This document shows positions 1 to 58,141 of a DNA stretch of 64,000 nucleotides, piece by piece (positions within the stretch are counted from its first letter, which is position 1; each line of letters opens with the position of its first letter). Source of the DNA: Tribonema minus (Eukaryota; Sar; Xanthophyceae; Tribonematales; Tribonemataceae); assembly GCA_017506865.1 (NCBI GenBank), contig JAFCMP010000113.1, positions 248,001-312,000 on the forward strand. The letters run 5' to 3'. Below the pieces are notes generated by a model. The model had not been told where the DNA came from, did not search any database, and saw nothing but the letters and a program-made list of their open reading frames with translations. The position numbers and the translations under genes are program-made.

Positions 1-1461
1 AGATCGGGTTTCATTGGGAAGAGGGGGGGGCTGAGGGGGGGGGGGGGGGGGGCACTTGTGCGGAGCACTGATGGCGACGCCCGCGTCGCCTCGCGCCCAG
101 GACGAAATGCCCGGGGGCGGTGAGGTCTGCCATGGGGAAGAGGGGGGGACGGGGAAGGTGCGGGGGGGGGTGGGGCGAAGGCAGCGTCAATATACTTTGC
201 CTCATGAGCTGCGATGCTGTGCCAGCGGACGCCGGTGCAGATGAGCCGTGCAGCGACTGTCCATCGACATGCCCGCCGCTGTCAGGGCATGCAAACCTCC
301 AGAATCGGGGTTGGGGGGTGCAAATGGGGGGAGAGGGGGGGGGGGGGGGTAATGCTGCGTGGCACCGCCACGCAGTGGATCTACGTGTCACAGTGGCGGC
401 AAGGTACGTGCAGGGCGCAAACACACGTGCCGTGCACAGACACACGCGCGATGCCGTGGTGCACGCAGGCGCCACAGCGGCAACGGCGTGCGCTTGCATC
501 AGCGCCTGTCTTCTCGGGTGAGCTGTTGCTGTGGCAGTCACGGGGGGGCGGTGCGCGCTGCGAACTACGGCCCCCTGGCGCGGCGCGGCCCAGAATCCCC
601 CAGGGTATACCCTAGGTAGCTTTTCACGCTAGAAGTAGGGTTAGGGCCAGGGTTAGGGGGGCCTCGTACACTGGGTCGTGCAACCTGCGCCGCGGCGTGC
701 GGGGTGGATGCCGGGGCGTGAACACGGCGCGCACGAGCGCTGCCGCGAGTCACAAGCAACGACAGCACCCGCACGCGCAGTGGGCTCGGGATCACTGGCG
801 TGCCCCCTGCTGATGCAGCGTGTGCAGCGCTGGCGGGTGCGGCGGTGCGCGGCGCTCGGCGCTCGAGCGCTGCCGCGACGGCCCTGCTGACGCCGTGCAT
901 CACACAGGCGCCGCGCGCGCACGCAACTGCACTGACACCACGCGCCCGCGTGCTCTCAACCCCTGTCGGCTCGTGCTTTGTCCGCTGCTGCCGTGCGTCC
1001 AACGCCCTGCCTCTCCCGTCGTTGTTCGCCTGGAGTTGCAGTTGGAGCCACTGGTCAGCATGGCCGTCGAGACAGTGCCTCTCACTCTTGCTCGCTCGCG
1101 CTGCTCTGCTGCTGCGTCTCACGCCCACTCGCCCTCGCATCCGTCGGCCCGCGCGCCTCCGCTGCCGCCGCACGTCGCCGCCCCCCGCGCACGCGCCGCC
1201 GCCGCCGCCGCCGCCTGCCGCGCAGCCTCACGCGACCGCTTTCCTATGCGTTCAATCCATACCTACTCGCTGCTCTCACCGCCGTGTTTTCTTGCATGCC
1301 GCGCCCGTCACGGCGTCTCTCGCAGGCGCCGTCGTCAAGATGGCGCACGAACGCACGCGCGAGAGCGCACGACTCATGCCTACTCGCGCCGCACACCTAT
1401 TCGCTGCTCTCACCGCCGTGCTCCCTCCCATGCGGCGTCGCTCGCAGGCGCCGTCGTCAAG
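1..1461. other. 5' flank with decayed copies of the first C2 exon
   Basis: No independent gene is supported here. The stretch has G-runs, a short telomere-like patch near 640-660, and two upstream copies of the start of the first recognised C2 exon. The nearer copy at about 1312-1345 repeats the acceptor (CTCGCAG) and the next 18 bases almost exactly. An older one at about 1015-1075 still reads VRLELQLEPLVSMAV against [16 protein letters not shown] in the real exon. Because the acceptor itself is copied, the exon beginning at 1448 is probably internal or follows a 5' UTR intron, so the gene may extend upstream of the window. Confidence 0.5.
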
Positions 1462-4400
1462 ATGGGCGTGCGGCTGGAGCTCATGTTCGAGGCGGCGCTG
1501 GTGGGCATGACCGTCGTCGCGGTGCACGAGGGGCGCGCGCTGCGCGTGGGCGAGCGCAGCAGCGCGGGCGTCGCGCTGCACCCCTACGTGTCATTGGAAA
1601 TGGGGCAGGGGTACACGAAGCGCAGCGCCACGGTATGTTCATGCACATGTATACACACATGAAGAATATATACAGACGCATGTTCCTCAGATGGGTTTAG
1701 GGCTAGGGTTTCAGCGAGCGCGGCAGCGCGGGCGTCGCGCTGCACCCCTATGTGGCGCTCGAGATGGCGCAGGGGTACACGAAGCGCAGCACCACGGTGC
1801 GTACATACATTCAGATAGACGATACACCTCGGTAGTGTTTTACAATGTAGGTGCAGGGTAGGTGTTGGGGGAGCGCAGCAGCGCGGGCGTCGCGCTGCGC
1901 CCCTATGTGGCGCTCGAGATGGGGCAGGGGTGCGAAGCGCAGCGCAGCGCAGCGCAGTGCAGCGCTCAGAAAGATGGCGCCACCGCGCTCAACAATCTGC
2001 TTTTTTTGGCAGTTCCAACCTCCATGTTGATGTTCTGATGCTGCTGCGCGCGCGCGGAAACGACGGCGCGATGGCATGACGCCCCGCGCTCAACACCGCA
2101 CCTTTCTGGCGTCGGCAGCCTCAATGTTGAAGTTTTTTGAAACTCGACTCCTATTCTGGCATTGGCAACCTCAATGTTGGTATTTTTTTCCCTTGCTTTT
2201 GCAGCCTCAATGTTGATGTGTTGTCAAATCCGACTTTCCTGTTTCGAATGCGCGCAGATCCGCGGCGGCGGCGCGACGGCATGACAACAACCCGCATTCT
2301 GACGTTTGCAACCTCAATGTTCAAGTTAATTGAAACTGACCTTCTCCATTGCGATGCGCGCAGATCCACTCAACGTTTTATTTTTTTTGAACTTAAACTA
2401 CTTTTCTGCGGACGCAGCGCAGATCCGCGACGGCGGCGCGATGACATGACGCCCCGCTCAACGACATGTTTTTCTGGTGTTGGCAACCTCAATGTTGGTG
2501 TTGTTCTTCAGCGTTTGCAGCCTCAATGTTGATGTGTTGTCAAATTCAACTGCGTTTCTGCGGACGCGCGCAGATCCGAAACAGCGGCGCGGTGACATGA
2601 CGCCCCCACACGACAACACGTTGTCCTGGTGTTGGCAACCTCAATATTGATGTTTCATTGGCGTTGGCCACCTCAACAATCAAGTTTTTCCAACTTCAAC
2701 TGCCTTTCGGCGGACACGGTGCAGATCCGCGACGGCGGCGCGGAGCCGCTGTGGCGCGGCGAGGAGGTGCTGCTGTGGGTGGACAGGGCCAACTGGACCA
2801 CGGATCTGAGCGTGAAGGTAGGTATTCGCGCAGCCCCAGGAATAGGGTTAGGGTTGGCACTGAGCGTTGACACCGGCAACGTCAAAATGCTCGGTGGACA
2901 GGGCCAACTGGACCACGGATCTGAGCATGAAGGTAAGTATTCGCGCAGCCCCAGGGTTAGTGTTAGGGTTGGCACTGAACGTTGACAACGGCACCCCACA
3001 TGCGGATCTGAGCGTGATAGGTATTCACGCAGCCCTAGCATTAGGGTTAGGGTTGGCACTGGGCGTTGACACCGTTAGCCTACGCGCTGCCGGCACTGGT
3101 CTAGCATCAAAAGCGCTCGGCAACACTCCTTTGTGTGCCTTCCATACACGGTGTCGCTGAGCATTCCTGCACGTGAACCATTCAATTGCGCCTCCCGCAC
3201 ACTCGTCTTTGTCCGTCCCCCCTTGAGCCATATGTGTGCCCGCGCACCGAGCGCCCCAGCGATGACACCGGCAGCCACACGCAGCGTGCCATACCTCATG
3301 CCCCATCTCTGTGTGTGTGTGTGTCGCGTGGGCTTTTCGATTACTGCACTCAGAATGACACATGCCCCTCCCTCCCCCGTTTTGCTCTCTCGCTCTCTCC
3401 CTCTCCCCCCCCCACCTGTGCATATGCGTGCGCGCGCAGTGCCTGAGCGAGGACACCGGCAGCCACACGCTGCTGGGGGCAGCGCTCGTCAGCCTGCTGC
3501 CGTACATGCGCGCACGCCCTGAGGACGCGTGCCCGGAGGCGCTGGCGCTCTCCGCAGGTGCGTCGCTCTTGAAATTGGCAATTGAAGTTCACGAAGTTGG
3601 CAATTGAAGTTCACGATTGAAGACTTTCAATGTCCTGACGGCAGTGGTGGCGCTTTCCGCAAGTGCGGCGACATGTCACCTCACTTGAAGTTTGTGTCCA
3701 AATATCGTTTTCGTGTCCGACGGCAGTGGCTGGATGCGTGCTGATTATCAAGGCTCAACAACGCGGAGAGAACTTGAAGTTTCAGTGCATGTGTAGCGCG
3801 CGGTTCCTGCCTCTGCGTGGCCGTTGCATGCGCGTCGCGATGCAGCGGCACACGCTGCGGCCATCGCCAAGGTGTGCTCTGGCCATGTTAAATTGCTGGC
3901 GCAGTGTGCTGCGTGATATTTCATGAAGCTTGCGACTTTTCATCTTGAACCTCTGGGATGCTGCAAGCTTCTGATAGCATGAACATGGCTAAAGGTAGGG
4001 TTAGGGTTAGGATTAGGGCAAGGTGCTCTGTGCGGGTGCACACTGCCTCAAGAGCATGCTCACGGTTTTGGAATAAAGATCAAGGGTCAGAGGAACGTCA
4101 AGTGGGGTTTTGGGGTCGGTATCAAGGCCAGACCACCCCTTACAATGAATTTGCACGGTACGCAGCGCTGCAGCGATGCCATGTGTGGCCGGGAGGGGGG
4201 GGGGGGCGGAGGGGGGGGGGCTCTGCAGTACCGGCGGCGACATGCGCACGCCTGTCCTCCTTCCGTGGACCGCGACAGCTCCCGGGCACAGGTGGCATGT
4301 GTTGGTATCGCGCACGCTCTTCGCCGACAGCAGCAGTGCTCAACGCACGACCGCGCAGCGCGCCCCGCCGCAGCGCCGCTGTGGAGGCCGCCGCGCAGCC

Positions 4401-6189
4401 TTGACGCCACGAGCATTGACATCTGCAAATTGCTCCGTTGCTGAGCGCTGCTGGGGCTCGGCTTTGGTGATATCAAATCGCTGCATTGTTGAGCACTGCT
4501 GCGTGCTCGGCTTTGCCTGTGCGCATGCCTCCGGGCACCTGCTGTCGGTGCCTCCGCTGCCGCGCGCGTTCAGCTCCCCCTCACTGTCGCGCTTCTCTCG
4601 CGTGGACGCGCCGTTTTGTTTGTTTCCGCATTTTGTGGTGAATAGATGGGCCCAAGGGCGAACTCCAAGAGCGAGGCCACCTGGTCATCACCACCACATT
4701 CCTCCCTGCGGGGCAGCTGACCATCACGTGAGCATATACCTACCCTACCGTGCTCTCACGGTGCAGTGAACAGGGTGCTATGAGGGCGACGGTCTGGGGC
4801 TACGTGCGTACATGTTCGCGGTATATACGTGTATCTGTATATTGGACGCATAGACACACAGAAAGACATATGTACATGCATGCATGCGCGCACGCTGACG
4901 TGCGCACTTTGAGAACGGAGCCTGTGATTCACAGATGCACATGTATGCATGCAGTTATGCATACGTACATGCATCGAAATGCCTACTTTGTGCATGCGGA
5001 TGTGCTCACAGATGTGCATGATGTGCGTACATGCGTACACGAGTGCACGCCATGACACAATCTTCAACTTCAACAAGCTATGGGTTGCAGGTGTCACATC
5101 AAGCGCCGTCTGAAGCTGGCTACATGCACACGTACATGCGTGCATTCATAGACTACACGCATGCTACGTCCATGAATGCCATAACTCATGGTTACACGCA
5201 TGCGTGATTGCAATGACACAATTCTCAAATTTCGTACACCGTTCAAGCGCACCTTGTAGTGCTCTTTGGTGACTTTCAGGCTGTTGGTCTGCTCTTGAGT
5301 GACATCTTCTACACAGAACACCGGCCGTGCGCTGCCTTCCAGGTGCCACGAGGGGCGCGATCACAAGCTCGCCGTCATACATACATGAATACCAGCATAC
5401 TTCGAAGTACATGAATACATGGACGTACATGCAAGACTACGTGCCTTGGCACAAGTCCAACTGCACATTGCTGCGCACTGCCCTTGCAGATGCCACGAGG
5501 GGCGCGGCCTCAAGCTGGCCGGCGGGGGCGGCGCTTCGGCCGCTCAGGTATACATATATAAATCACCGCTGTCTAGAAGTGGCTGTGTCAGTGCATTACC
5601 GTGCCGCTCGCGCCGCCGACGCCTTGGTGGCCTTGTTCTGAGATGACTGTGTCAACGCATTATGATGCCATTCGCACCGACGATGGCGTGCTGATCGACG
5701 CCTGAGCTGGTCCGGAAGCGTGGCTTTGCGGCTGTGGCTGCAAGCCTGCCGAGCACTGCTGTGACGGACAACGCCGCGCGGTCGTGACGGGCGCGCACGT
5801 ATCATTCTGGTCCAACCGCACTAGTCGGCAGATGATGTCGGCCCATTGCCGATGTGCAGCGCACGCCACCAGGAAAAAACTGCGCAATCATGACCACTCG
5901 ATGCTTTGGTTTCTGTCGCATGATGCCCCCCCCCCCCCTCACCCCCTCCCACCCCCTCCCCCACCCCCGCAGGACCCCTACCTCGTCTTCAGCGCGGAGG
6001 GGCAGGCCGCGGAGCTGCGGCGGCGCTCGCGCGTCGTCAAGGACGGCGGCAGCGCGCCCAGCTGGGGCAGCGAGGCGCTGCGCGTGGACGTGGTCGACCA
6101 GCACGCGCTGCGCGTCGAGTGCGTCGGGCACGACCTCGTGGGCCGCGACGCGCTCGTCGGCGCCGCGGACATCAGGTGCGCCGCCGCCG

Positions 6190-6229
<40 letters not shown>

Positions 6230-9200
6230 TGCTGCCGGCGCCGCTCGGCGCCATCGGCATGAGTTGTTTGCGCTCGGCTCATCTCTTGCACTCTCACAGC
6301 GGCATGATCTGAGCTCACGAGGTGCGACGCGCTTGTCGGCGCTGCGGACATCAGGTGCGCCGCGCTGCCGCCGCCGTCGCTGCCGGCGCAGCCGTGCGTT
6401 TTTGGCACGCTGCGCACCTCTTGCACATTTGCAATTCGCATGATCTGACCTCATGGGCCGCGACGCGCTCGTCGGCGCCGCGGACATCAGGTGCGCCGCG
6501 CTGCCGCCGCCGCCGCTGTTGCCGCTGCCAGCGCCGCCGGGCGTTGTTGGCACGCTGCGTGTCTCTTGCACATCCAAATGCGCGTTTGCAACGTGAATGA
6601 ATTGAGCTTGCGGGGTGCGGCGCGCTCCTTGGCGCTGCGGACATCAGGTGCGCGCCGCCGCCGCCGCCGCCGCCGCTGCTGCTGCTGCCAGCGCCGCGTT
6701 TGCCAGCGCCGCGTTTGCTAGCGCCGCCGGGCGTTTTGTCACGCTGCGCATCTCTTGCACATTTGCAACGTGCATATTCTGGGGCGCGACGCGCTCGTCG
6801 CAGCTGCGGACATCAGGTGCGCCGCGCCGCCGCCGCCGCCGCTGCCGCCACCACGCTCTGCTCGTGGCAGTATTGCGTGCGGCAGTCTGGGCCCCTACAT
6901 TGCGGCCTGCTGCGCATGGTCGAGCGTGTGTGCTTGCAAACACGCGGCTCACCACCGCATCAGCGCCTGGCACGTGAGAGTGAATGCCATCCGCTGTCAT
7001 TCCTCTGCAAGCCTCGTGCATATCAGAGCAGGTCCCCCGCGCGCTCCTTGCCGCCCCGAGCACCTGCCGCGGCCTGCTTCAAGCGTCACCCTGCCCTCGT
7101 GCTGCGCGGCAGCGGCAGCGACAGCACCAGCGCAGCCACACGGCCCACCACGGAAGCAGCGCTCAATTCGTGCCCAATTTGAACATCCCACTCCGCGCGG
7201 CATGCATGACACGAGTTTCCCTCACTTCGTTGCTTTCCCCGCCGCCGCAGCCTGCTGCCGGTGTTCAAGCGCGTGTGCGTCGGCACGTAAGTCACGCTGC
7301 GTGGCCGCGCTGCGCCGTACGACGTATCACGACGGCAGCGCTCAACTCATGCCCCATCCACACATCCCCCCCGCGCGGCATGCATGACACGAGTTTCCCT
7401 CACTTCGTTGCTTTTCCCGCCGCCGCAGCCTGCTGCCGATGTTCAAGCGCGGGCGCGTCAACGCGTGGGTCACGCTGCGCGGCGGCGCCAGGCCGTACGG
7501 CATAGCATACATGACGGCAGCTCTGAACTCGCGCCCCATCCATACGTTCCCCTCCGCGCAGCGCGCATGCCCTCACCTCTCTGTTGCTCCCCGCCGCCGC
7601 AGCCTGCTGCCGGTGTTCAAGCGCGGGCGCGTCGACACGTGGGTCACGCTGCGCGGCGGGGGCGGCGGCGGCGGCGGCGGCGGCGGCGAAGCGACCGGCG
7701 AGGTGCGGCTGACGCTGGAGTTCGCCGGGCCCGCCGGCGTTGCATACCCGCAGCACCGCCGCGGCATGGATGCGTTCGACGACACGGAGCGCGTCAACGT
7801 CGCCGGCAAGGTACTTTAGGAATGATTACTTCAAGATATTGCGAAGTATGCGCGGTTTCCAGTCTGATCATTGATAACGTCCACAGTTAGCCAGGTACTT
7901 TATGGTTGGGTACTTGAAGAAACTTCAAGGTACTTTGAAGTATGCGCGGTTCAGTCTGATCATCGATAACGTAGGAAGATTTCGGGCTGATTGCTGATAG
8001 CTTACAGCGATGTTTGCGTGTCGAGATCCTCAGGGTTAGGGTTAGGGTTAGGGTTAGGGTTAGGGTAACCCTAACCCTAACCCTAAGACATCAGACGGCA
8101 CCTGCGGGTTACGTAGACTGACCGTTGCGGCACCGCCCCGGCCTGGGCGCGTTCGACGACACGGAACGCGTCAACGTCGCTGGCCAGGTGCTTTAGGAAT
8201 GAGTACTTCAAGATATTGTGAGGTATACGCAATTCACAGTCTGACCATTGATGGTGAATGGGTCATTCGGTCTGGTTGTTGACAACTCACCTGGACGCAT
8301 GTGTGTTGCGAGATCCTCAAAATGATACACCTGGACGCATGTGTGTGGCGAGATCCTCAAAATGACGGGCAGGGTGGCACCTGTGGACTGCGCATGCAGC
8401 GTCGTCCTCGTCCTGGCGCTGTTGCTGGCCAGCGGCTGCTGCGCAAGGGCAGTCTGAGCGTCGTCAGCCTCACCCGTAATCATAGTTCAACATACCAATA
8501 GTCTACTTGACACCATCAAAACCTTCCATACCATTATGTCAATGACACGCCACCAGGCCGACGCCGCTGCGGCCACCGCCGGCCCGTCCTCCACAACACA
8601 CTACAACATATCATACCCAACATACCAATGCTCCCATCGACACCATCAATACCTAACATACCCATGATGTACATGACACGCCATCAGGCTGACGTCACCG
8701 CGGCGCCGTCCACCACCACGACGCTGGCGCTGGCCGGCGACGCCGCCGCCGCCGACGGCGCCGACGCCGCGGGGCCCGAGTTCAGCGAGGAGGAGATTTC
8801 CAGCGCGTTCCGCTTCATCGACCTCGACCGCAACGGCTTCATCGGCGCCGCGGAGATCCGCCACATCCTCATCTGCATGGGCGAGCTCATCACGGACGAG
8901 GAGGTGGACGCCATGATCGCGCTCGTCGACTTTGACGGGGACGGGCAGGTGCGTCACCACGCGTGCGCTTGTTGAAGTCTGTGGGAAGTTCCGTCTGGCC
9001 GTCGTAGGGGTGCGGGTGTTCTAATCGCGCTCTTGCGAGCGTATCGCGGACGAGGAGGTCGACGCCATGATCGCGGTCGTCGACTTTGACGGGGACGGGC
9101 AGGTGCGTCACATGCGCTTGAAGTTATCGTAAGTTCCGTCTGATCACGGACGAGGAGGTCGATGCCATGATTGCGCTCGCCGAGCGTCGACTTCCGCGGG

Positions 9201-11878: not shown

Positions 11879-11912
<34 letters not shown>

Positions 11913-15569: not shown

Positions 15570-15984
15570 CGCGCGCGAGTGCGGCGCGCGCGGGTGCGGC
15601 GCGGTTGCCAACGTTGTTGTCATTGCATTTGGTCAGCGTCCTTGGTGAAAGGATATAGTGACCTGGATGTGAAAGCGGCCCGCTTCATGCATGCCGTCTG
15701 CTTGTCTGTCGTTGTCATTAGTCGTTGTCAGCGTTGGCACGCAAGCATGGTCACACGTGCAACATGCGATGGCACCAGGATGTAAGTTGTTGCACTCGCC
15801 ATCTGAGTCAACGGATACTTCGGAACGAGCAGAATTTTACGGAGGAAATGTTAGAAAAAGCAGGCTCGCTCCGAAGGGGCGCTCTAAACATCGAGGGCTG
15901 CACACAACCTCCCGAAGCTTCGCAAACTAGCAAGCAGCAAACTAGCAAGCAGCAGACAGCAAGAGTTCAACCAGCACCAGCAAC

Positions 15985-24585: not shown

Positions 24586-24616
<31 letters not shown>

Positions 24617-33814: not shown

Positions 33815-33859
<45 letters not shown>

Positions 33860-35466: not shown

Positions 35467-35499
<33 letters not shown>

Positions 35500-46500: not shown

Positions 46501-49500
46501 ACGCTTACTGACAACCTCAACACGCCGCAACTGAGGCGCAGTGGCGACGTCGAAGTGGCAGCTCTCGATATATTCCAAGGCAACTTCAAAGGGTGACGCT
46601 CACCTATGACCTCCAACTTCGCGCGTTGCTCCTCTGTCACCGTGGCGAGGTCAAATCGCAGGCAGCTCTTTGGTCTATTTCATGTATACTCTTCAGTGCA
46701 ACTTCAAATGGTGACGCTCACCTACGACCTCCAACTTCGCGCGTTGCTCCTCTGGCACGGTGGCGAGGTCAAATCGCAGGCAGCTTTTGGGCGTTGGGTT
46801 GTACTGGTAGCCGTCAAAGCAGGGGCCAAAGTAGGTGAGCCCGCTGAGAAGGGCGCCCTGCATGACCAGCCTGAAACAACGGCGGCACCGATATATTTCC
46901 TCAGCACTCGGGACGTGCACGCATGACATCTGTACATATGATACTGACGTTAGCCACTTCTCCCATAACCGCCCACCCCGCGGCATGGCTGTTGGCCGGC
47001 CTCGAGTATTGCACAGTAAAGTAAAGCGAGCTTATCAGTTGCATTTTAAAGAATACGAAATGGGTGAAATTGGTGTGTGACTTCATGTTTGTCGAAGTTG
47101 CTCGCCAGCGCCGCACCAGCTGCCAACTTCAACTGCAAGTGCAGACGTGCCTCACACTACAATCAGCTCCCGTTCGCCTATAAGCCCGTCGGCACGGGCA
47201 TTCGCCCTTTGGTCACCGTTGCCGTTTTGCTTGCGACCTTCTATCGTCGGTGCCAATGCTGCTATGCCCGGGTGCAGACACAAAGTTCCGAGGAAGCGGG
47301 GCACTTGCTCACAGGCCTGCCGCTGGGCTTATCTATAGCCAAAAACGTGGCGCCAAATCAGTGCTCTACAGCGCTTTCCGTCAAAAAAGCTCGAAGCAGT
47401 GAATTCCAGAACTCCCGATCAAAAAGTGTTCACTTCTTGATGGAGCTGGCTTAAGGCAGTCAGAAGGCGCTCAATTTCTGATGGAGCTGACTACGGCAGT
47501 GACTTTCAGAGATCCCGATCAAAGGCACTCACTTCCTGATGGAGCTGCCGCCGCACTTGTCCAGGTGCAGGAACACAAATGGCCGCTGCGGCGTGGGCCG
47601 CTGCTGCACGCCCGGCAGCCCTAATAGCGCCGTTCTGGCCTCCAGAACGGCCAGCGCGGCGAGGCTCTGGCAGCGCGAGTCCAGACGACAACGGCGGCAG
47701 CGAGCAAGGCGGTGAGCATCATCACCTGGCTATCAAATCCACACTTGTCCAGGTGCAGGAACACAAACGGCCGCTGCGGCGTGGGCCGCTGCTGCACGCC
47801 CGGCAGCCCTAATAGCGCCGTTCTGGCCTCCAGAACGGCCAGCGCGGCGAGGCTCTGGGAACGCGAGGCCGAACGAAAACGGCGGCAGCGAGCAAGAGCT
47901 GAGCATCATCGCCTGGCGCACCAGTTGCTCAGGTCCAGTGCCAGCCGAGGAGTATGATTGCGTGACACAGGGTCTCCGGCTGCGCCAACGGTTGTCTGAG
48001 CTCATCCGGAAGCGCAAGACCAAAAAACAACGGCGTCATTGCCTGGCCAACGACGCTGCAGCACGGGAGCACTTGTTGCAGTCGGTCGTGCGCACGCTTA
48101 GCACCACAAGAAGCGCTGAAAAAGCGTGAATGAGACCCAGCGAGACACTAGTCAGACGCACACGCAGCGGTGGCGGCCAGCGAGGCGCTGAGTGCGAGCG
48201 TGTGTCAGCATGCGTCCCCCGTGGCTGCAATTTCAGCAAGTGAGCACTGCCGCCGGGGCTGTCGCTTGGCACTCACGGCAGCCGAAGCGACGGCCTGACC
48301 TCAATGGCAGAAGGGCTGCAGCAAGACTCCCTGTTACCAGTACCAGACGGCGCCGGCAGTGAGCCATGTGCCGAACGCGGTACGATCTTAAGTACATAGG
48401 GCGAGAGTCATGCGGCATGCTGCATTGCTGGAAGCGTGTCGCTCGCTGCCGCACGAGAGCACTGCTGCCGCGCATGCAGTCACTTGCGCCTCCGCGACAA
48501 ATCAGGCTGCCAGGCCTGAATGTGTCGGCGAGGAGCTCGTGGTGCACGGATGATACACATGCAGTTCGTGGAAGGGGGGGGGGGGAGTGCCCCGGCGTGC
48601 AGCGGCAGCAACGAACGTGCGTCGCTGCTACGCAACCGATGAGCGCCGCGCTGCATGGAACACACGCGCGCCATACAGAATTTGGCGCGGCGCGAGAGGG
48701 GGCGGAGACGCCCCGCATCGCTCCTGTGCCGCGCAGCGCGGAAGCACAGCACGCCCATGATAGCTGCTGCAGGCGGCAGCAGCGCCCTGATGCCGGCTCT
48801 GCAGCAGCATGCCCCGAGGCGCGCGGCGCGCCGCAGCCGTGCGCTGCTGCGCCGTGCCCACCACGTCCGCACGCGTGCCATGATTGGCACTCGGAACCTC
48901 GCTGCTACGTGTTGCCACTCTTCGGCACCCGAACCCTGACTCCAGTTCTGACCATCAACACTCGCCGCGCTCAGCGCGCTGCGCTCTGCACACGCATGCA
49001 TACAACAGCCACGCGCGCCGCTGTGATGATCAAGGAGCGTCACCGACCGCCAAGCAATGCGCGACGAGACAGACATGCCGCAGCACAAACCGTCGGAGCG
49101 CTGCTGTGGTCTATTTGAGCGATGCGCGCGGCGCGCACCTGCGAGACGGCCACGCACTGCGGCGTCGCCACGGCGCGCGCCGCGCACAGCTCCGCGGCGG
49201 CGCGCTGCTGCGCCATGTCGTCCCCCACGTCAGCGCTCAGCACCACGACTTCATCTTCAACTGCGCCGCCGCCGCTGCCGCCGCCGCCGCCGCTGCCATC
49301 GCCGGCGAACGTGACGTGCAGGTTGACGGTGCGGGCGGGGATGAGGACGGGGAGGTGCCCCCCGCCGCCCCCCCTGTGCCATTCCACGCCGGCCAGGCCG
49401 ACCTGCTTGATATAAGGCCGCAGAAGGGGGGGATTCAGCACACTTAGCCCCGCTGGGTAAAATGCTTGTGCTGGCGTGCAGCAGGCCATTGGTGCATGCA

Positions 49501-51795
49501 GTATGCGCGTCAGTGCTCAGCATGTGTCAACTCCCCAAGAGGGGGGTGGGGGTGAGGGGGGGGCATTTGTGGCGGGCGGTGCGGAACGCTCCGCAAGTCG
49601 AGCCCTGCACTTTTACGCCCTCCGAGCCGCGTCGTGGCGACCTGTTCCTGAATTGCAGGTGATCTGCACCAGCAGCAAATTGGGGGTGTAGGATATGCAA
49701 AAGGTGCAAGGGAGGGCGGAGGGGGGGGGGTTCCGCGCAGCATGCAGGATGTCGAACGTTTGAGCCATGCGCTCGGTGCGCATCAGTCAGCGCTGAGGAA
49801 CTGGAGGTGAAGTCAATGAGTATCGAGGTGATGAAGTTGACGAGTGTCGGCCAGCAGTGCGCACGCCGCCATTACATGACACATCAACGATGCATCTTTG
49901 CCTCCAACATCCGCACCACCGTGGTGACCTGGTGCTAGGGTTTGGGCTACGCATGCGTACTCACCGGCGGGAACCCGGGAGGGCCCGGCAGGGTGAGGGA
50001 GGCGTACGTCACGGAGCCTTCCAGAGGGACACCCCCCTCGCTGAGCCATGCCTTGATGGTCAGTATGTCGCCCGCCTGGTGCACGCGCGCGCAAGGACAG
50101 TCAAGCAGCATTGCTCAGGACGAGTGTAACAACAGTAGCTGTTGCGCATGCGGCGCGGGCACACAAAAGGCAGCAAAGCAGCAGTGCTCAGGATGACCCT
50201 GATAAAGCGGCTGTCTTGCGGGCCTACGTCGCCGCATGCGGTCTGACATCCCGGCGGCAGACCTGCGAGCGTATTCTGTACAGCGCGAGCGCGGGCTGCG
50301 TTGCGTGCGTGCGGTGGCAACGCTCAGCCCGCGCTGCGCGCGGTGGCAGTGCTCAGCAGCTACAGCGCGCGTGGTGGCAGGGCTCAGGGCTGCTGTGTGT
50401 GCAGTGCGGCAGCGCTCTCGCGCTCAGAGGTGCCCGTCGTCGCGACGCACCGCTGAGACGGATGATGCACCGCTGTGTGCAGCGGCGCTTTGCGTGCAGC
50501 GAAAGAGCGTATCGCCGCCGCCGAGACGTGCCTCTGTGTGCCGACAAATAGCGCGCCGACTCACTGAGCCCTGACTCTGTGCTGCTAACGCTCACACCAG
50601 CCCCAGTCCTCGCGACGTCCGCCGCTACTGACCAGGGCGCACCGACCGGGCTCCAAACGCAACCGACAGAATGGCAGCTGGTAGCACGCGCTCTCTGCGC
50701 ACGACAAGTGGGCTCCAGCTTAAAATGACAACAACGCTAGCCACCTGACAGCATGAGCGCTGTTGCAGTCAGGAACCATCTCAAACTTTGTGACATGACC
50801 TCTCAGACGGCTACCTGCGTACCTGTGATGAGGGCCCGTACACCTATGCCTTTGTCAGTGACCTCTCCCTACTACCCGTGCAAACGAGTCATACCAGACA
50901 TGACAGCCTCCTATGCCTTTGTCAGCGACCAGTCAGACGGGTGACTGCGTACCTGTGCTGAGGGTACGTACACCTTTGCCTTCGTCAGTGACCAGTCAGA
51001 TGGGTACGTAGATACCTGTGCAGAGGGCACGTACACCTATGCCTCTGTCAGTGACCTCTCCTACGGGTATATAGGTACCTGTGCAGAGGGCACGTACACC
51101 TCGGTGACGGTGTGCTCCGCGGTCTCGTCCATGCGCACGCACAGCGCGCGGCCGCCGCGCTCGCCGCGCCGCAGCGGCTGCAGGCACATCTGCACCTGCG
51201 CGCAAAGCAGACAGCAACGAGAACGCGCTTCAGTGCAACGCTTGACGAAGGCGACGGCCGGCGCTAGGCGGCAGCTGATCCACGGTGCGACACGCGAAGC
51301 ACGCCGCACTTGAAGTGCGTTTCTGCGAGCTAGGGTGGCGTTTCAATAAGCCTGCGTGGCGACTCGGCGGCCCGCCGTTATGCGCCGCGTGCATGTGCGT
51401 GCGCCAGCGCCGCCACATTGCATCAACGTACTTCAGCCGCAGTTGAGGATCACCCCTCCACACACACACACATCTCCCCCTCGGGCTAGCTCTGCATGCC
51501 CCGGCAGCGCCAACTGCTATCATCCACAGACAGGTTTCGCCGAAACTGCCGGATGAATGCGGTCAGCTCAATGCTCGCTCACATCGCGGCCGCGGAAGAA
51601 AGCCGCGGGGTCCACGTTGGTCACTGCCTCCATGCGCACGCCCACGATCGTGCCGCCGCCGCCGCCATAGTCACTGTCACCGCCACCATCGGCGCCGTCA
51701 ATTCCAATACTGCCGTTGCCGCCACCGCCGCCATTGCCGACGCCGCCACCGCCACCGCTACTGCTGCCGTCATCGCTGCTGCCGCCACCGCCGCC

Positions 51796-51847
<52 letters not shown>

Positions 51848-54800
51848 CCGCCACCGCCGCCGCCGCCGCTGCCACCGCCGCCGCCGCCGCCGCCGCCGTG
51901 CCGCTGCCGCCAGCGCCGCCCGTCCGCAATCAGCCGCGCCTCCGCCACATGCGCAAAGGCCAGCACGGGGGCGTTGTCGGCAACCGCGCGCGACAGCCAC
52001 GGGTGCGGCGGCGTCGCCAGCGTGATGACGTCGCTCAGTTGGGGGGCCGGGGGCGCGGCGGCGGCGTCGGTGGCTGCGCGGCTTGTGAGAGTCAGCGCGC
52101 GGCGCAGGAGCGTCGCTAGCGACGCCGGCGGCACGGTGTGGGATGTTTCTTTGCTGCCGTAGGGGCCTGCGGGGTGGGGGCAGCGTGATTCAGTGTCAGT
52201 AATGGAGGGGGGAAGGGGGGGGGGGCACACTCGCCACAGTTTTCCGCTGGCAGAGCGGCATGGTATGCTGCAGCACAGGAAAATCGCGAGCTAGTGAGTT
52301 GCTAGCATATGCGCTTCATACTAACATGCAAACACAAGTACTGTGCAGCAAAGCTACACAACGCAGTTCTGGAAACACGTTGCTGCGTGCGCCCCCCCCC
52401 TCCAGCCCCTCCCCCCCCCGCACCCTCTGACCCCCTAACCCTCACTCACCCTGAAGCCATGCGCGTCTAGAGAAGTTGAAGCGGTGCCACCGCCGCGCAC
52501 CGCTCGCCACGGCCACCTCCTGGCAGTGCGCGAGCACGTGCTGACCCGCGGCGATCGCCTGGTTGGCCATGTGCCACAGGAACTGCGGGCGCGGGGGTTT
52601 AACAGGTGAAGTTAGGGGTAAAAATTCAGCTGCGCCGCGATGATTAGGGTTTGGGTGCAGGGCAGGTGGGGAGATCCCCCATACTGGCATGCAGTGGTGG
52701 GCAAAGCGGACGGCGAGGGCGTGCGGCGTTAACTAGGGTTTGGCAGATGAGCGCTGCTGTGGCGCTGCACTAGGGTTCAGTTCTTTGGCAAGTATGGGCA
52801 AAGCGCACACATGCGCGCTGGCCCGAAGCGATGCCCTAACCCTGAACCCAGGTTTACCCGCGGTGTCCATGTGCACACAGGTAGTGAGATACCGGCAGAA
52901 GGAATGGCACGTACATCAGCAACGTGATGAGGCTGGGGCTAGGGTCAGGAAACATGAAGGTGCTGAGCCATGATGACACCCCGGAGGTTTTGTGAGGTAC
53001 AATGGAGCGGCCGACATGCATACATTCAATACGTACATACTTTCATGACCTTTGCAGCCTTCTGAGCAGTCACCCACGGTTGCCGACCGTACTGCCGGAC
53101 GTGCGCTGACACAACTTCAACTTTGAAGTTCTCACCTCGCACCAGCCGGGCATGACGAGCACGATCACGGCGCCCCCGGGGGGCATCAGGGGGACGTTGT
53201 GCAGGCCCGTCCCGTACTGACCAATCAGAACGCGCGTGTTGGCCAGCACGTCGGCCTGCTCCCGGAACCCCATCGCGGCCAGGTCGACCTGAACGCGCGC
53301 GGGGGGGGGGGGGGGGATGGTGGGTATGTGAGAGGGGTATGTGTCCGAGAGGGGCATGTAGTGTGTCTTGACAAGCATGTCGGCCTCTCCTATCCCCGTC
53401 AGGTCCAGCTGAGGGGGGGGGAGGGCGGGGATACGTTTGCGAGAGGGCATGTATCTGAGAGGGGTGCAAAGTGCACGTTGGCGAGCACATCAGCCTGCTC
53501 CCGGACTCCCATCCCGGCCACGTCACCTTGAGCTCCCAGACTCAAGCACGCAGGGGGGAAGGGGGGGGGGGTGGGTGTGCGAGAGGAACATGTAGAAGTA
53601 TGCGATAGGGTATGCATGTGTATGCATGTACGCACGTGCTGTCACTGCGGACCGCGTGGCACCAGTCGACGCCGCAGCCACGAGCCACGGGTGCTGTCAT
53701 GCGCTTCGTTGGTGAAGAATGCGCTCTCACCTGGATGACCCGGCAGCGCTCGACGGCGCACGCGCGCTGCGCCGTCGCAACGAGCGTCGCCTGGTTCTCG
53801 AGCGCGCGCGCGCCGCCACGCACGACGAACGTCACGAGCTGCGGCGCGTCCTGCTGCTGCTGCTGCTGCTGCCGCTGCTGTTGTTGAGCGTCGGGCCATG
53901 CCGCCCGGTGCTGCTGCAATGGTAGCTCTGCTGAGCCGTGCTGCGGCGCTGCAGCGCCGCGCAGGAAGCGCGCGAACGCCGTGTAGCGCTGCTGCAGCTC
54001 CCAGTCCTCCTGGGCGGCCGCGGAGCAGTGGGGAGTTGGCCAGTCAGGAATTGTGTGCGCTGCAGAATACGCAGCGCCCCGTGGCGCCCTCATACCATCT
54101 TCACGACCACAACTGAATGTTTCAGTACTTCAGAAGTACACAAGTTCAATAATATACTTCATATACTTCAACTTCAAGTATAGTGAATCTGACACACACC
54201 AACTCCTATCCGTGCCCAAGCTCTTCACAAGTGTTTCAAGAAGATGCGCTGTGGAAACAACACACCGCTGTCTGGGGGGCTCAGGTCTGCACAGGCATGC
54301 TGCGCGAAATGGGTTGCAAAAGCAAACAGTCTAGGCGCTCACCGTTGAAGCTTCATATTCACAGACTTCAGACGCGATGAATGCGCATGGGAAGCGTACG
54401 TACCGCCCGCCTCTGGCGCAGCACCAGGCTACAACAGTAACTTCAAAAAACTGCCACACTCCGACAAACTCACCCGCAAACAGTAACTTGAACACCTGTG
54501 CCAGACTCCGACAATAGCACCTGCTCACGTGCACTTCACCAATGAACACTTGCTAACTTGAACTATGCTGGTCTAGTAGAACGTCTTTTTTTACCAGATC
54601 TTGGTGCTTTATAATATTGATTAATTGTGGGCATTTTTCTGATTTATTTCTTTTTATTTATGGGCTTATAACTCAGTTGGTTAGAGTGTACGCCTGGTAA
54701 CTGCTTGCACCTGCGACGTCGGCGGCGCGAGCACCGCGGGGTGCCGCGCCTGCCCGCGCGCGTAGTACGAGCCGCTTGTATCGAGGCCGACGTGCAGCTG

Positions 54801-57011
54801 CCTGAAGCACGTGAGGCCGTCCAGCGCCGCCAGCGCGCCCATGGAGTGTATCGGGTGCGCGGTGAAGGCCTGGCGCGGAGGGACGTAGAGCAGCGGCAGC
54901 GGCGGCGGCGGCGGCGCATGAAGCATCGGGCTGCGCTGCTGCCACTCAGCGCTGACTGTTCCTGACAGAGCACTTAGCGCCTGTCGTTACGGCTGTATGT
55001 ATCCCCTCGGCGAAGCGCAGAGGTCCAGTTACCATGCGCGCACGCGAAGCGCGAGCTGGAATGCATGAGGTGCTGAGCGCGATGCGCTTCCCCGCGCGGC
55101 CGGCGCCTACCCCTAACCCTACCATTGGAAGTGTGCAGTTCTAGAGTCGTACGTGCACGCTGTGCTTCTGTACATGCACGCGCGCTATGTACACGCGCGT
55201 GTTGCCAAGCGCGCCTGTGGCGTGTGCCAGGCGCACAGCTCGCAGGGCAGTGGCAGCAGCAGTGCTCAATTCGGAGAGATCGAACGCTTCGAGCGCCAGA
55301 CATCGCCAGCATACTTGAAGGGGCAGATGCGAAATTATTGGGAAGTCCTGCTGTCTGCCGCATTTGTCTGGCTTCCGGGTTCTCTCTGCTGGCTGTCCGT
55401 TGCAGCGGCAGCATGCAGAGAAGAGAACATGCAATGGACAGCACGCGGAACCAGCCCCCCCCCGATAGTTGTTCGTGAGAGGGCATCACCCGCTACCCCG
55501 CGTGGATAATGTTCTTACCCCTCACCTGACACGGCATGTACTCATCGCGACAAATACCTCACTTGAAGTGGCAAATACCTCACTTGAAGTGGCATGTACG
55601 ACAAATACGCACATAGGTACCCTTCATCAGGACCCACCCACATGCTCACCCCCACAACAACGAGCAGCCAGAACAGCGCCTGCGCCTCACCTGGAGCAGC
55701 AAGAATGGCGTGTCTGTGTACATCGTCTGCAGCATGCACCGGTGGTTTGCTTCTGCGACTCCATGTTCAGGAGCATACCTACATGCTCACTTCATCACCA
55801 TACATGTGTGCCCCCCCTCACCTGCAGCAGCGAGAACGGCGTGTCCGCGTAGACCGCCAGCAGCACGCGCCGGTGGTGCCCGACGCGCTGCTCCTGCTCG
55901 TCCATATCCACGATCATACCTACATACTCACTTCAGCACCATATATACATACCATCCCCTCACCTGCAGCAGCGAGAACGGCGTGTCCGCGTACACCGTC
56001 CGCAGCACGCGCCGGTGGTGCGTGACGCGCTGCTCCTGCGAATCAATGTCCAGGACGAGGATCACGTCGCGCGGGTCGCGCGCGCCAGAGCGCTGACGCG
56101 CATCCGCCGAGCACTGCTGCGCCTCGGACGAGCGCTGCTGCGCCTCCGCGTCGGCGGTCGAGCGCTGCTGCTGCTGCTGAAGCCAGCGCCCCCCGTAGAG
56201 CATGTCGTAGAGCGGCTCGAGGACGTCCACAATGAGGTGCCCCACCTGCGCCCGCCCCCCAGATGTCCCCCAAGAACAGCACGCGCGGGCAGGCGTGATG
56301 AACTTGAGTTGCGCATGCGGACACGGGTGAAAGGGACATGCGGCCTCAAGTGCTGCAGCAGGGGCGTGCGCGCAGCTGATGCGTGGTGGGTGATTTAATC
56401 CAAACCCAAACCCTGATCCTAGCCCTAAATGCAGTCTGAGACAGGATCACGTAAACAAATACACACACATCTGCAGCTGCAAGCGGAGCTGACGCGCGCT
56501 CACATGCCAGTCAGCACGTGCAGCAGAGTCGGCGCCACGTGACTTCAACTTCAACTTCAGCCCGTGTGGCCTTTTTGAAGTAAGCAGATCACTAACATGG
56601 CTGCACGCTTTCTCTCTCTTCTCTCCATCTCTCTTTCCCGCTCTCCCTGATGCACACACACACGTCAACACAAACGCGCGCAACCGCAGTGCGATCGGGC
56701 CTGACGCCACGCACATTCACTCATGTGCCATGTGAGCACGTGCAGCACGAAATAATGGCGTCTCTATGTTACTCTAACTCTGGACTGAACCCTCACACAC
56801 CGCTCATCAGCTCCTGCACAACCACTTTGCGTCTGCAGCTGCGAGCGCGCAAGGCCCTGCGTCGCGTGCGCACACTCACATGCCACGTCAGCACGTGCAG
56901 CACGACGGTCGACGTCTCCACGTAGCGTAGCGCGCGCACGCCGCCCCGTCGTTCCAACTTCAATGCCCGTATAGATCTGCTGTTTGCACAGCCCCATCGC
57001 TAACATGCTGC

Positions 57012-57046
<35 letters not shown>

Positions 57047-58141
57047 CTCTCGCTCATGCACGCACATGCACAAGCAATCAGGTGCAAGTGGGTCACTGGC
57101 AAGCACTTACGTGCCACGTAAGCACGTGCAGCACGATGGTCGGCGTCTCCACGTAGCGCGCGCACGCCGCCCCGTCAAACGCGTCGCGCGTAACGCGCCC
57201 GCGCACGCGCGACCATGGATTCGTGTGCGTGTCCTTGAAGAACACGGACCAGCGCAGCTCCGACAGCACCATGTCATTGGGATCGCTGGCGCCATCGCCG
57301 CTGATGTCCCCCTGCATCGGTAGGCACATAAGTTATCAAAACGGAGAGGGTGTTTGTGACACCTTCTGGGGGCGTAGCACCCACAGTGGATCCAGCGAGA
57401 CATGGTACACTTTCTGGTGAACGTGTAGAAGCTGTGGGGGGCAACGTTAAACAATATTGGCAGTACCTACGTACTGGCTGGATTCCGTGGTGGGCTCCCT
57501 GCCTGCGCAAAGTATGACCTTCCGCTTCCAAGGTACCACTCAGCGGGGGGAGGTGATGCGCCAGCCTCAGCTGATGTCTCGTCACGAGCCAAGCACCCAT
57601 CCTAAAAAACAGCTACAGAAGAATTCCAGCTGTGACAGCCGGCTCACGAGCGTTGATGCTAATTGTGACCGCAGCCGCTCACCTCTGGGTCAAACAGCAC
57701 CCCTCGCAGGATTGGCTGTCCCAGCGGCCCGGCCGTGCCCTCCAAAGCGCAGCTCTCGCACGACGCCCATTTGTCCGGCCCTGGCACTTGGGACACCACT
57801 CCACGCCGCAGCACGCTGCTCCTGGGATGTATCTCTCCGGCCGCGCCCCTCTCTGTTTGCTGATCAGTGTCCTGGTGGCAATGCGGCACCCTGGATCTCC
57901 CGTGGGTGCGCTGCAGCAGCGGGGCCTGGGTGCTGCATTCGCACTGCAGGTCGGAGCCGGTGCCGAAGCAGGCATCGTCCGAAAATGCAGAGGCACTCTT
58001 GCTGGTGTCCAGGAAGGTGCCAAACCCCTGGCTAAGAGGCAAACAGCTGCTGCTGTTGTTGCTGGCATTTGCTGTTGCGGCCAAGATCAGGATGCAAATG
58101 AAGCTAGCAAGTGGATGCCATAATGTGGCGCTGCATGGCAT
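37582..58141 (-). CDS. GT61-type glycosyltransferase fused to a sulfotransferase (19 exons)
   Basis: Exons (minus strand): 58141-57683, 57311-57111, 56245-55964, 54869-54711, 54009-53731, 53288-53136, 52582-52450, 52166-51583, 51195-51100 (or to 51079), 50075-49965, 49402-49139, 47666-47533 (or from 47585), 46870-46722, 44781-44670, 43174-43033, 41951-41894, 41160-41013, 38827-38746, 37710-37582. Every junction is GT-AG and agrees in phase (0, 1 and 2 introns all occur), giving about 1,200 residues with one stop, TAG. The N-terminus is a signal peptide or anchor (ASFICILILAATANA), so a Golgi or secretory location is likely. A GT61 module, a linker of about 400 residues and a complete sulfotransferase follow. 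Probable task: add a sugar and sulfate to an extracellular glycan. The alternative is two genes divided somewhere in 49.1-47.7 kb, but no stop or start marks a boundary, and exon 11 (CVAVSQ) runs naturally into exon 12 (SLAALAVLEA). Confidence 0.75.
38615..38965 (-). repeat. Copies flanking sulfotransferase exon 18
   Basis: GAGATGCTCAACCCGTGCGA with its donor (ACATGGTGAG), the 3' edge of exon 18, recurs at about 38617-38645 downstream in gene orientation. On the acceptor side, TGACTATGTACCTAT and CTTCATGGCCCAG (or CTTCGTGGCCCAG) recur at about 38888-38960, so the acceptor edge has been duplicated as well. Confidence 0.75.
39203..39660 (-). repeat. 226-bp intronic tandem repeat
   Basis: Two units starting at 39203 and 39429 (GGCACC..., TGACAAAGCGTGCATGGCGG, then GTGCCAATGAGC and AACCAGGATCTCAA) lie in the intron between sulfotransferase exons 17 and 18. 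On the minus strand both units keep an open VPAVTAENVEILV-like frame, and a third, related frame (VPAVTAKDLEILV then stop) lies at about 39541-39580. They may be duplicated edges of an exon I could not place. Confidence 0.75.
39541..39909 (-). CDS. Unassigned 122-aa ORF nested in an intron
   Basis: An open frame on the gene's own strand (RHSMKNHVGETPGDLSTATM, then HLLGFGVEVGLQQVPRHVRS, ending VPAVTAKDLEILV). No family recognised. It could be an optional exon with a stop codon, an inserted element's ORF, or chance. Its tail being shared with the adjacent 226-bp repeat favours a real coding history. Confidence 0.25.
   Translation of the reverse strand: MPPLRVSVRHSMKNHVGETPGDLSTATMEPCHLLGFGVEVGLQQVPRHVRSSLLSAAMYFTHMLKLTLRGIHGSTNPRRLRARFTFAHAVCRARKRMRHAAIMILSAAVVPAVTAKDLEILV
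41543..41580 (-). repeat. Telomere-type CCCTAA island in sulfotransferase intron
   Basis: CCCTAACCCTAACCCTAATC followed by CTAACCCTGACCCTAATC: about six partly degenerate units. In gene orientation this is TTAGGG, the same orientation relative to transcription as most islands in the plus-strand C2/EF-hand gene. Confidence 0.85.
41800..42125 (-). repeat. Edge duplications on both sides of sulfotransferase exon 16
   Basis: On the donor side, GGCACCAAAGTGTGCCCATC ACC near 41872-41893 is repeated in altered form (GGTGCCAGAAAAGTGCCATC ACC) near 41822-41843. On the acceptor side, GCGGATCAGCGGAAGAGGAGCG-type units, each followed or preceded by GCTGAGCATCG, recur at about 41960, 42012 and 42070, at roughly 55-60 bp spacing. 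Confidence 0.7.
42585..42694. repeat. 110-nt imperfect palindrome with 26-bp arms
   Basis: Left arm 42585-42610 (starting TTGTGCGCCC) and right arm 42669-42694 (ending GGGCGCACAA) are reverse complements with about three mismatches in 26. The interior itself holds a 25-nt direct repeat (TGTCG[C/T]ACAGGT...GAGATGCG). It lies in an intron of the fusion gene, between exons 15 and 16. It could be a MITE-like insertion, a fold-back duplication or a small-RNA hairpin precursor; the sequence alone does not decide. Confidence 0.8.
43255..43335 (-). repeat. Copy of sulfotransferase exon 15 acceptor edge
   Basis: In gene orientation, CGCGCAGCTACTACTACGAT and the following 45 or so bases repeat the start of the real exon at 43174 (CGCGCAGCTACTACTATGAT) about 150 nt upstream. 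The copy breaks off after CTGTCACCCGCTG and rejoins intron sequence. Confidence 0.88.
43890..44640 (-). repeat. Array of about six copies of sulfotransferase exon 14 3' edge
   Basis: Downstream of the real edge (RHPVERVV, donor at 44669) the minus strand carries, in order, related segments at about 44525, 44385, 44270-44210, 44080 and 43960-43900 that read LEVRHPVERVIR, LRVRQPVERVIR, SCFFMMRHPVERVIR, LEVRHCVERVIG and SCFFMVRHLVRRVIR. Each is followed by GTGCGCAGT-type donors. Long spacers (GTTTGTATGACCCACT; CATTCCATTTGTACATGC in one strand) alternate, so the array is compound, with short and long units. Confidence 0.92.
44840..45022 (-). repeat. Copy of sulfotransferase exon 14 acceptor edge
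   Basis: AGCGCCCCAGTCGTGCCGCG GGTGCAGCGCTGCTCAGACG at about 44919-44960 on the plus strand repeats the acceptor region of exon 14 at 44750-44790 (TCTGAGCAG|CGCTGCACC in gene orientation), G-run included. Related copies start the two 608-bp units that follow. Confidence 0.85.
45023..46238 (-). repeat. Recent 608-bp tandem duplication
   Basis: 45023-45630 and 45631-46238 are nearly identical (a handful of differences, for example ACACACGTATAC against ACACATGTATAC). Each unit contains a decayed copy of exon 14's acceptor edge at one end and of exon 13's donor edge at the other (GTGACGGTCCCAAAGTTCAC to GGCAGCTCTTCGGTCTA on plus), with microsatellite-like TATACATATGTATACTTGAC between. It shows how multi-copy units are themselves re-duplicated. 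Confidence 0.93.
46270..46670 (-). repeat. Three or more copies of sulfotransferase exon 13 donor edge
   Basis: On the plus strand, GGTGACGCTCACCTATGACC TCCAACTTCGCGCGTTGCTC and similar segments at about 46590-46665, 46375-46460 and 46495-46560 copy the end of the exon at 46722 (EEQRAKLEVV then donor). The nearest copy reads EEQRAKLEVI in frame; distant ones are decayed. Each carries TTGAAGTTG or TTTGAAG just after the donor. Confidence 0.9.
47740..47885 (-). repeat. Copy of sulfotransferase exon 12 5' part
   Basis: The segment reading VLEARTALLGLPGVQQRPTP and FVFLHLDKCG is repeated almost exactly about 210 nt upstream of the real exon (47533-47666). The copy ends inside the nucleotide-binding motif, losing GSSIR. 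If spliced, it would give a defective motif. Confidence 0.92.
50820..51078 (-). repeat. Four copies of exon 9 3' edge
   Basis: In gene orientation GGTGTACGTGCCCTCTGCAC followed by AGGTA recurs about every 60-70 nt at roughly 51097, 51034, 50975 and 50845, with spacers of the type TCACTGACAGAGGCATAG. Because the unit contains two candidate donors (GAG|GTGTAC and CACAG|GTACC) the true exon 9 end is uncertain, but both keep phase. Confidence 0.85.
51779..51898. repeat. Long (GCC)n run coding poly-Gly in exon 8
   Basis: About 120 nt of CCGCCG/CCACCG repeats on plus, encoding an almost unbroken glycine run in the linker of the fusion protein. It may form strong G-rich structures on the coding strand and is likely to vary in length. 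Confidence 0.9.
53380..53535 (-). repeat. Two copies of GT61 exon 6 acceptor edge
   Basis: In gene orientation, copies of the start of exon 6 (real start 53288, GTCGACCTGGCCGCGATGGG) occur at about 53529-53485 (GTGACGTGGCCGGGATGGGA, then REQADVLANVH in frame) and about 53410-53375 (CTGGACCTGACGGGGATAGG). All share the following phrase ACACATGCCCTCTC/CCCCTCTCGGAC in the intron. Confidence 0.85.
54583..54700 (+). other. AT-rich insertion ending in the 5' half of an organelle-type tRNA
   Basis: About 80 nt of very AT-rich DNA (TTTATAATATTGATTAATTG) are followed at 54662-54700 by GGGCTTATAACTCAGTTGGT then TAGAGTGTACGCCTGGTAA. This is the 5' acceptor strand, an intact D-arm (ACTC paired with GAGT) and the 5' side of the anticodon arm of a tRNA resembling bacterial or organellar tRNA-Ile. 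The 3' half is absent, so it is not a functional tRNA. It lies antisense in the intron after exon 4, about 10 nt from that donor. Most likely a small nuclear insertion of mitochondrial or plastid DNA. Confidence 0.65.
55690..55905 (-). repeat. Two copies of GT61 exon 3 3' edge
   Basis: In gene orientation the exon end (GTGTACGCGGACACGCCGTT, CTCGCTGCTGCAG, donor) recurs at about 55905-55825 (GTCTACGCGGACACGCCGTT) and 55750-55690 (GTACACAGACACGCCATTCT). The intron phrase TGCTGAAGTGAGTATGTAGG (with variants) occurs between them. The first copy is nearly perfect. Confidence 0.9.
56495..56945 (-). repeat. Three copies of GT61 exon 2 3' edge
   Basis: Downstream of the exon ending at 57111, segments with GTGCTGCACGTGCTNACGTG-type sequence recur at about 56935-56880, 56750-56715 and 56545-56500, spaced about 190 nt. 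Each is followed by repeated spacers (CTCTCT-rich runs, TTGAAGTTGGA/TTGAAGTTGAAGT). Confidence 0.85.

Follow-up and report, generated by a model that had tools for sequence, protein, structure and literature searches.

Existing introns in Tribonema minus probably grow through local tandem duplications that span a splice site, the exon-proximal site being kept in use. We analyzed a window of 64,000 nucleotides (GenBank assembly GCA_017506865.1, contig JAFCMP010000113.1, positions 248,001 to 312,000; coordinates below are those of the window). Here, exon edges were repeated within the adjoining introns as ladders of copies that are local, direct in orientation, positioned at the edge and decaying nearly as neutral DNA. 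The reading frame of gene A runs through the exon-proximal sites, which fits the lengthening of one intron. Long introns are commonly attributed to transposons. The ladders are real and also occur beyond the window, and the observation made in a first-pass annotation of this DNA was confirmed in part.

Gene models and exon-edge ladders in the window

Three genes of the window were modeled as follows.

1449 to 15569, plus strand: gene A, 13 exons, C2 and EF-hand protein; the first exon may sit upstream
1449-1632, 2725-2817, 3440-3557, 4646-4727, 5490-5547, 5973-6175, 7603-7810, plus strand: gene A exons 1 to 7
8688-8948, 10395-10493, 12198-12431, 13023-13088, 14433-14548, 15347-15569, plus strand: gene A exons 8 to 13
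21621 to 26700, plus strand: gene C, AAA+ protein, with the AAA model over its cut-off in the scanned part
21621-22112, 22841-23104, 23508-23606, 24336-24809, 25506-25677, 26432-26700, plus strand: gene C exons, with one or more further exons upstream
49139 to 58144, minus strand: gene E, modeled from splice-site scoring and the open frames of single exons
57683-58144, 57111-57311, 55964-56245, 54711-54869, 53731-54009, 53136-53288, minus strand: gene E, first six exons
52450-52582, 51583-52166, 51100-51195, 49965-50075, 49139-49402, minus strand: gene E, last five exons

We take gene C to be ORC4-like from a motif judged by eye. In another gene, gene B, one exon matched GH26. Splice sites are predictions that combine reading frames and homology with the scores of a matrix trained on 19 introns. 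The 13 joined exons of gene A form a single open frame; Pfam C2 and EF-hand pairs continue over the exon joins, and both domains are intact with exon-proximal splice sites. In particular, exons 8688-8948 and 10395-10493 jointly complete one EF-hand, which is unbroken if the exon-proximal donor of the intervening ladder is used, and that donor is therefore favored by homology as well as by scoring. All 12 gene A introns, as modeled, begin with GT and end with AG, and U2 snRNA gave four matches over the cut-off in the genome; with these borders and this snRNA, the introns are of the U2-type spliceosomal class.

The exon-edge copies placed in the window were the following.

1547 to 1945, plus strand: donor ladder of exon 1449-1632, 2 intronic copies
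2057 to 2743, plus strand: acceptor ladder of exon 2725-2817, exon part about 19 nt
2778 to 3074, plus strand: donor ladder of exon 2725-2817, 115-bp unit
3229 to 3473, plus strand: acceptor copy of exon 3440-3557
5335 to 5521, plus strand: acceptor copy of exon 5490-5547, weak
6132 to 6848, plus strand: donor ladder of exon 5973-6175, 4 intronic copies
7156 to 7659, plus strand: acceptor ladder of exon 7603-7810, 178-bp unit
7750 to 8252, plus strand: donor ladder of exon 7603-7810
8488 to 8704, plus strand: acceptor copy of exon 8688-8948, exon part 17 nt
8881 to 9443, plus strand: donor ladder of exon 8688-8948 (EF-hand), 3 intronic copies
10490 to 10567, plus strand: perfect 39-bp tandem pair across the donor of exon 10395-10493, with 4 nt of exon
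11323 to 12241, plus strand: acceptor ladder of exon 12198-12431
23552 to 24094, plus strand: donor ladder of exon 23508-23606 (gene C), 4 intronic copies
25291 to 25579, plus strand: acceptor copy of exon 25506-25677 (gene C)
56873 to 57176, minus strand: donor ladder of exon 57111-57311 (gene E), 3 copies in its intron, two of them weak
55685 to 56055, minus strand: donor ladder of exon 55964-56245 (gene E), 2 copies
53238 to 53586, minus strand: acceptor copy of exon 53136-53288 (gene E)
47551 to 47917, minus strand: acceptor copy of putative exon 47534-47620, 188-bp unit
46147 to 46790, minus strand: donor ladder of exon 46722-46870, 3 copies at a score of at least 36
43860 to 44729, minus strand: donor ladder of a putative exon ending at 44669, 4 copies at a score of at least 36
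43109 to 43365, minus strand: acceptor copy of putative exon 43033-43178

Comparison of the window with itself yielded 63 matches, 58 direct and 5 inverted, and all 58 direct matches lay less than 1.5 kb apart. Among the 38 exon edges of genes A, B and C, 11 had a same-strand copy in their own intron (local score of at least 40), compared to 0/38 reverse-complement matches and 0/612 matches between an edge and other introns at that score. In gene E, on the minus strand, 3 of 20 exon edges matched their own intron (score of at least 36; controls at this score, 0/20 reverse complement and 0/144 other introns). Five extra edges, chosen for their adjoining arrays and counted in no rate, included four on the minus strand that matched and the acceptor at 1449, which did not. 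Most exon edges have no detectable ladder. Long-unit tandem copies make up 35% of the intron sequence of gene A and 21% of that of gene C.

These results bear out the first-pass description of serial same-strand copies of exon tails with their donors, and of exon heads with their acceptors, in several genes on both strands. Other parts of that description did not hold as given. It counted at least 20 ladder introns, whereas 16 could be placed in the window (7 in gene A, 2 in gene C and 7 on the minus strand), and it gave 20 to 130 nt of copied exon, whereas we measured 14 to 95 nt in 27 arrays (4 nt in the pair at 10490). The statement that copies nearer the exon are better preserved was not supported: the pairs were split 14 against 15, with one tie (rho = 0.03; P = 0.83).

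Several repeats of other kinds were also observed. Positions 15507-18711 and 62286-64000 are inverted segments, 88 to 89% identical (70% in one short piece); the former extends from the end of gene A over the 3' portion of gene B (GH26-like), and the second copy reaches the window end. A 608-bp tandem duplication at 45024-46239 (98.5% identity) is larger and younger looking than the ladders. Repeat units of ∼78 bp occupy 19928-20256, inside an apparently coding frame open from 18927 to 20654, and units of ∼18 bp occupy 21787-22005, within a modeled gene C exon. Across the assembly, eleven psaA/psaB-like fragments (on C168, C490, C107 and others), some with stops, look like plastid DNA in the nucleus. 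Two psaA fragments that were compared lie closest to the red-lineage-type PsaA chains 9m4f and 9ygv; the latter features in a giant kelp paper, which makes an ochrophyte-like alga a likely source.

Concentration of long-unit arrays at exon edges

We quantified the position of long-unit arrays in introns with both flanking exons known, which left out arrays beside an unseen exon, including some in contact with a known one (parts of L066, L067, L070-L072 and L074-L076). In 62 introns of 17 genes (53.7 kb), 35 of 41 arrays reached at least 4 nt into the exon (minimum spacing, 60 bp), compared to 9.2 (standard deviation, 2.6; maximum, 19 in 5,000 trials) when the arrays were relocated at random. 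In this respect the first-pass interpretation was supported: in many of the genome's intron-rich genes, exon edges anchor recurrent tandem duplication. For set 1 (35 introns), 27 of 29 arrays reached at least 4 nt into the exon at a minimum spacing of 40 bp (relocation null, 6.4; maximum, 15), and a clean copy extending to the splice site was present at 25 of 70 edges. To remove the detection advantage of the conserved exon, arrays were also scored with both copies intronic; an edge was then touched by 21/23 arrays at a raw score of at least 50 and by 15/15 at a score of at least 100. Under this intron-only test, two-copy arrays numbered 3 at edges and 2 in interiors, compared to 18 and 0 for arrays with more copies. 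Distances of the six non-edge arrays to the splice site were 83, 20, −2 (2 nt inside the exon), 219, 326 and 0 nt; four were within 83 nt, and two, at 219 and 326 nt, stood farther off. Array coverage in exons was 0.28 at the edge and had dropped to 0.02 by 80 to 90 nt. No long-unit pair was found in a 2.7-kb open exon or in the 14.1 kb of the window outside modeled genes, a region that may contain an unmodeled gene and part of the gene B copy. Unlike the long-unit arrays, short-period repeats (12 to 44) were interior in 24 of 29 rows, with overlapping rows counted. Inverted pairs numbered 3 in the 62 introns, and the 3 of set 1 all represent one telomere-like palindrome.

The pattern is widespread yet gene dependent. 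In 178.8 kb of tubulin and kinesin loci, with overlapping loci multiply counted, 180 pairs were direct and 3 inverted; 14 of 30 kinesin loci had no pair. Five of six intron-rich kinesin genes carried arrays at several modeled exon edges, and the sixth, L068, had no array. Kinesin exon borders were picked from the matrix score and homology, as were those of the CCT chaperonin gene, and several kinesin edges are uncertain by about 9 to 40 nt. In six further kinesin genes, 20 arrays placed by eye comprised 9 at edges, 2 interior, 1 ambiguous and 8 unplaced. The CCT gene (L077) had one array in 7 introns, which ended exactly at an acceptor and held no exon sequence. By set, edge arrays were 28/30 in set 1, 3/4 in gene E, 4/6 in the second kinesin set and 0/1 in CCT; the last two values, together with the absence of arrays from L068, count against growth of introns from their edges. 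Since L068 has no array and the CCT gene (GC, 0.53) no ladder, gene GC content or intron length may matter.

Two sequence features of the introns were observed alongside the arrays. Interstitial clusters of the telomere hexamer (TTAGGG) numbered 19 in the window and 0 to 1 in five Markov resamples; there were 10 in the 16.0 kb of gene A, B and C introns, 21 in the 33.0 kb of set 1 introns and 0 in the 14.1 kb outside modeled genes. Examples are as follows.

2842-3056, 3994-4018, 8030-8087, 11174-11212, 14611-14653: TTAGGG stretches in introns of the window
42971-43018: a further TTAGGG stretch

These stretches are possibly a second repair scar, a suggestion that rests on correlation. In addition, ACTTCAA/TTGAAGT was the 7-mer most over-represented relative to base composition (154 compared to 9.4 expected in 140 kb, comprising the window and L065-L076). 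ACTTCAA was absent from the exons of genes A, B and C and was denser in array-covered intron (30 in 10.3 kb) than in other intron sequence (21 in 22.7 kb). Because arrays themselves multiply ACTTCAA and both orientations occur, no conclusion was drawn about a role as a breakpoint motif.

Ageing of the copies and alternative explanations

Most copies differ from one another by several to about 30%. Between exon and copy, mismatch at codon positions 1, 2 and 3 was 7.9, 7.5 and 15.3%, respectively (45 copies). The equal mismatch at positions 1 and 2 fits a copy without coding constraint, which argues against coding use of the copies, and the excess at position 3 fits an exon changing mainly at synonymous sites; the copies thus decay roughly as neutral DNA. 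Frame-breaking indels were present in two of the three copies of one aligned ladder, and unit length was a multiple of three in 11/27 cases, showing no clear preference. In 24 strong cases, the copied span took up no more than 54% of the exon. The length of the exon part fits random placement of the unit if the splice site must stay (mean, 49.7 compared to 54.6 nt; P = 0.21), although the longest exon part was below the prediction of the random model (P = 0.007). The splice dinucleotide (GT/GC or AG) was kept in 36 of 41 copies, compared to about 31 predicted from exon-part identity, consistent with the first-pass view that copies bring potential decoy splice sites. In intronic copies, the identity of the exon part exceeded that of the intron part (0.83 versus 0.72 for donors; 0.85 versus 0.77 for acceptors), a figure that is biased since copies were found via the exon part and that we do not read as constraint. 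Plain duplication of whole units does not predict better-kept exon parts; possible causes are a bias of detection, constraint, or gene conversion templated by the exon.

Edge arrays could predominate if arrays arise evenly and those at edges last longer, the selection-held exon continually re-seeding its array. We simulated this situation with constant exons, neutral introns and uniform seeding, including homology-dependent slippage in nine of eleven settings; the settings were limited and of our own choosing (eleven uniform and four edge biased). With uniform seeding, 33 of 123 arrays fell at edges across the eleven settings, far from the 28/30 observed in set 1, and a constant exon anchor as the sole cause was therefore insufficient in the settings tried. 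When an edge excess of 15-, 30-, 60- or 100-fold was imposed, 23/32, 14/17, 81/92 and 55/58 arrays were at edges, respectively, suggesting that roughly a 30- to 100-fold excess would be needed. Longer survival at edges is compatible with the interior location of most short-period repeats and with the contrast between two-copy and higher-copy arrays in the intron-only test; given that two-copy arrays favor edges by only 3:2, part of the edge bias could stem from persistence rather than origin. As a full account it appears unlikely, since arrays with less than 4 nt of exon also tend to lie near splice sites and long-unit arrays are missing from the sequence outside modeled genes.

Selection might instead favor edge copies outright if extra splice sites or exon-edge enhancers aid splicing or regulated alternative splicing. 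The slight surplus of retained splice dinucleotides and the better-kept exon parts (biased by the detection route) would agree with this, and weak selection could, with no mutational hot spot involved, strongly skew which duplications become fixed. We nevertheless give it a low probability, because mismatch is equal at codon positions 1 and 2, indels break the frame and unit lengths show no clear multiple of three. Lower still is the probability that the introns were born by duplication of AGGT-containing exonic segments, with the ladders as birth relics. At a score of at least 26, the 5' part of one intron of 57 (2818-3439) weakly resembles the next exon (score, 28), and the 3' part of two resembles the previous exon (scores, 41 and 26; the first is a gene E intron with a donor ladder). 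Over all 57 introns, however, neither comparison exceeded its control (P = 0.16 each), and the units include intron sequence beyond the splice site. AGGT intron birth was accordingly rejected as a general cause, and the first-pass suggestion of intron birth by exon duplication was not sustained. An artifact of assembly or GC-rich low complexity would suit a GC-rich window with many simple repeats, but it is very improbable considering the divergence among copies, their neutral-like codon pattern, the empty reverse-complement and cross-intron controls (0/38 and 0/612) and the recurrence of the same pattern on many contigs. The least probable reading, that the arrays are mobile intron elements, either introners or another transposon family, draws on the occurrence of introners in a stramenopile and other aquatic lineages, as given in PMC9860276 and PMC7789003. 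Two ladder-intron probes searched against the 158-Mb assembly of 554 contigs (very common words skipped) matched only themselves or their own neighborhood, the probe from the 8881-9443 donor ladder matching that array alone, and the units hold exon sequence of the host gene; a mobile element was rejected for these two probes.

Proposed edge growth of introns and comparison with known systems

Growth of existing introns by boundary-spanning duplication would proceed as follows. A small tandem duplication, mostly of 75 to 280 bp, would span the splice site of an existing GT-AG intron, the duplicated unit carrying about 15 to 95 nt of exon edge and enough intron for a working splice site. The exon-proximal site would remain in use after each duplication, leaving the protein unchanged, while the extra copy would become intron and decay roughly neutrally; repeated events would build ladders. 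Such duplications may arise, or become fixed, some 30 to 100 times more often at edges than in intron interiors. The cause may be, as a guess, staggered breaks in transcribed introns, followed by fill-in and end joining, possibly at the ends of RNA:DNA hybrids. That exon-intron boundaries in this lineage are hot spots where DNA breaks and duplicates in tandem, in connection with transcription or splicing (for instance at mRNA:DNA hybrid ends), is a tentative proposal that we hold at somewhat less than even chances. If it is true, splicing itself would mark growth points and introns would lengthen from their edges; should the bias lie in origin and not in survival, DNA breakage would be linked to exon-intron structure. 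In addition, rows of potential decoy splice sites beside real ones are useful for studying spliceosome choice.

The tandem genomic duplication (AGGT) model of intron gain, reviewed in PMC3443670, shares with the ladders a local direct duplication within a gene, the extra copy being concealed by splicing; here, pre-existing introns seem to be lengthened, and there is no overall footprint of exon-only duplication. In potato RdRp (PMC4974935), the duplicated segment likewise straddles an exon-intron boundary and carries its splicing signals along, as in the 35/41 boundary-spanning arrays; that case is a single event producing a new intron, whereas here serial events lengthen introns at many edges. 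Novel introns in Drosophila (PMC2891723) also show duplicated exonic (coding) sequence becoming intronic, in few cases and at new intron positions, compared to the serial, edge-biased and partial-exon copies in T. minus. Fill-in of overhanging breaks gives small tandem duplications in human and mouse cells by a route employing a complex that also acts at telomeres (PMC8355091). Those duplications are direct and local as well, at a break; the breaks there were induced and the insertions short (<100 bp), whereas break site and enzyme are hypothetical here. Introners (PMC9860276; PMC7789003) resemble the ladders in their large-scale effect on introns of aquatic protists and differ in that no dispersed family was found here by two probes and the units carry host-exon sequence. 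Among the matches listed from a literature search that leaves most subscription journals outside, none describes serial exon-edge ladders. Duplication-driven intron gain is known (PMC3443670; PMC4974935; PMC2891723); relative to these accounts, the difference here lies in serial ladders at both exon edges, in many genes, with a measured edge bias.
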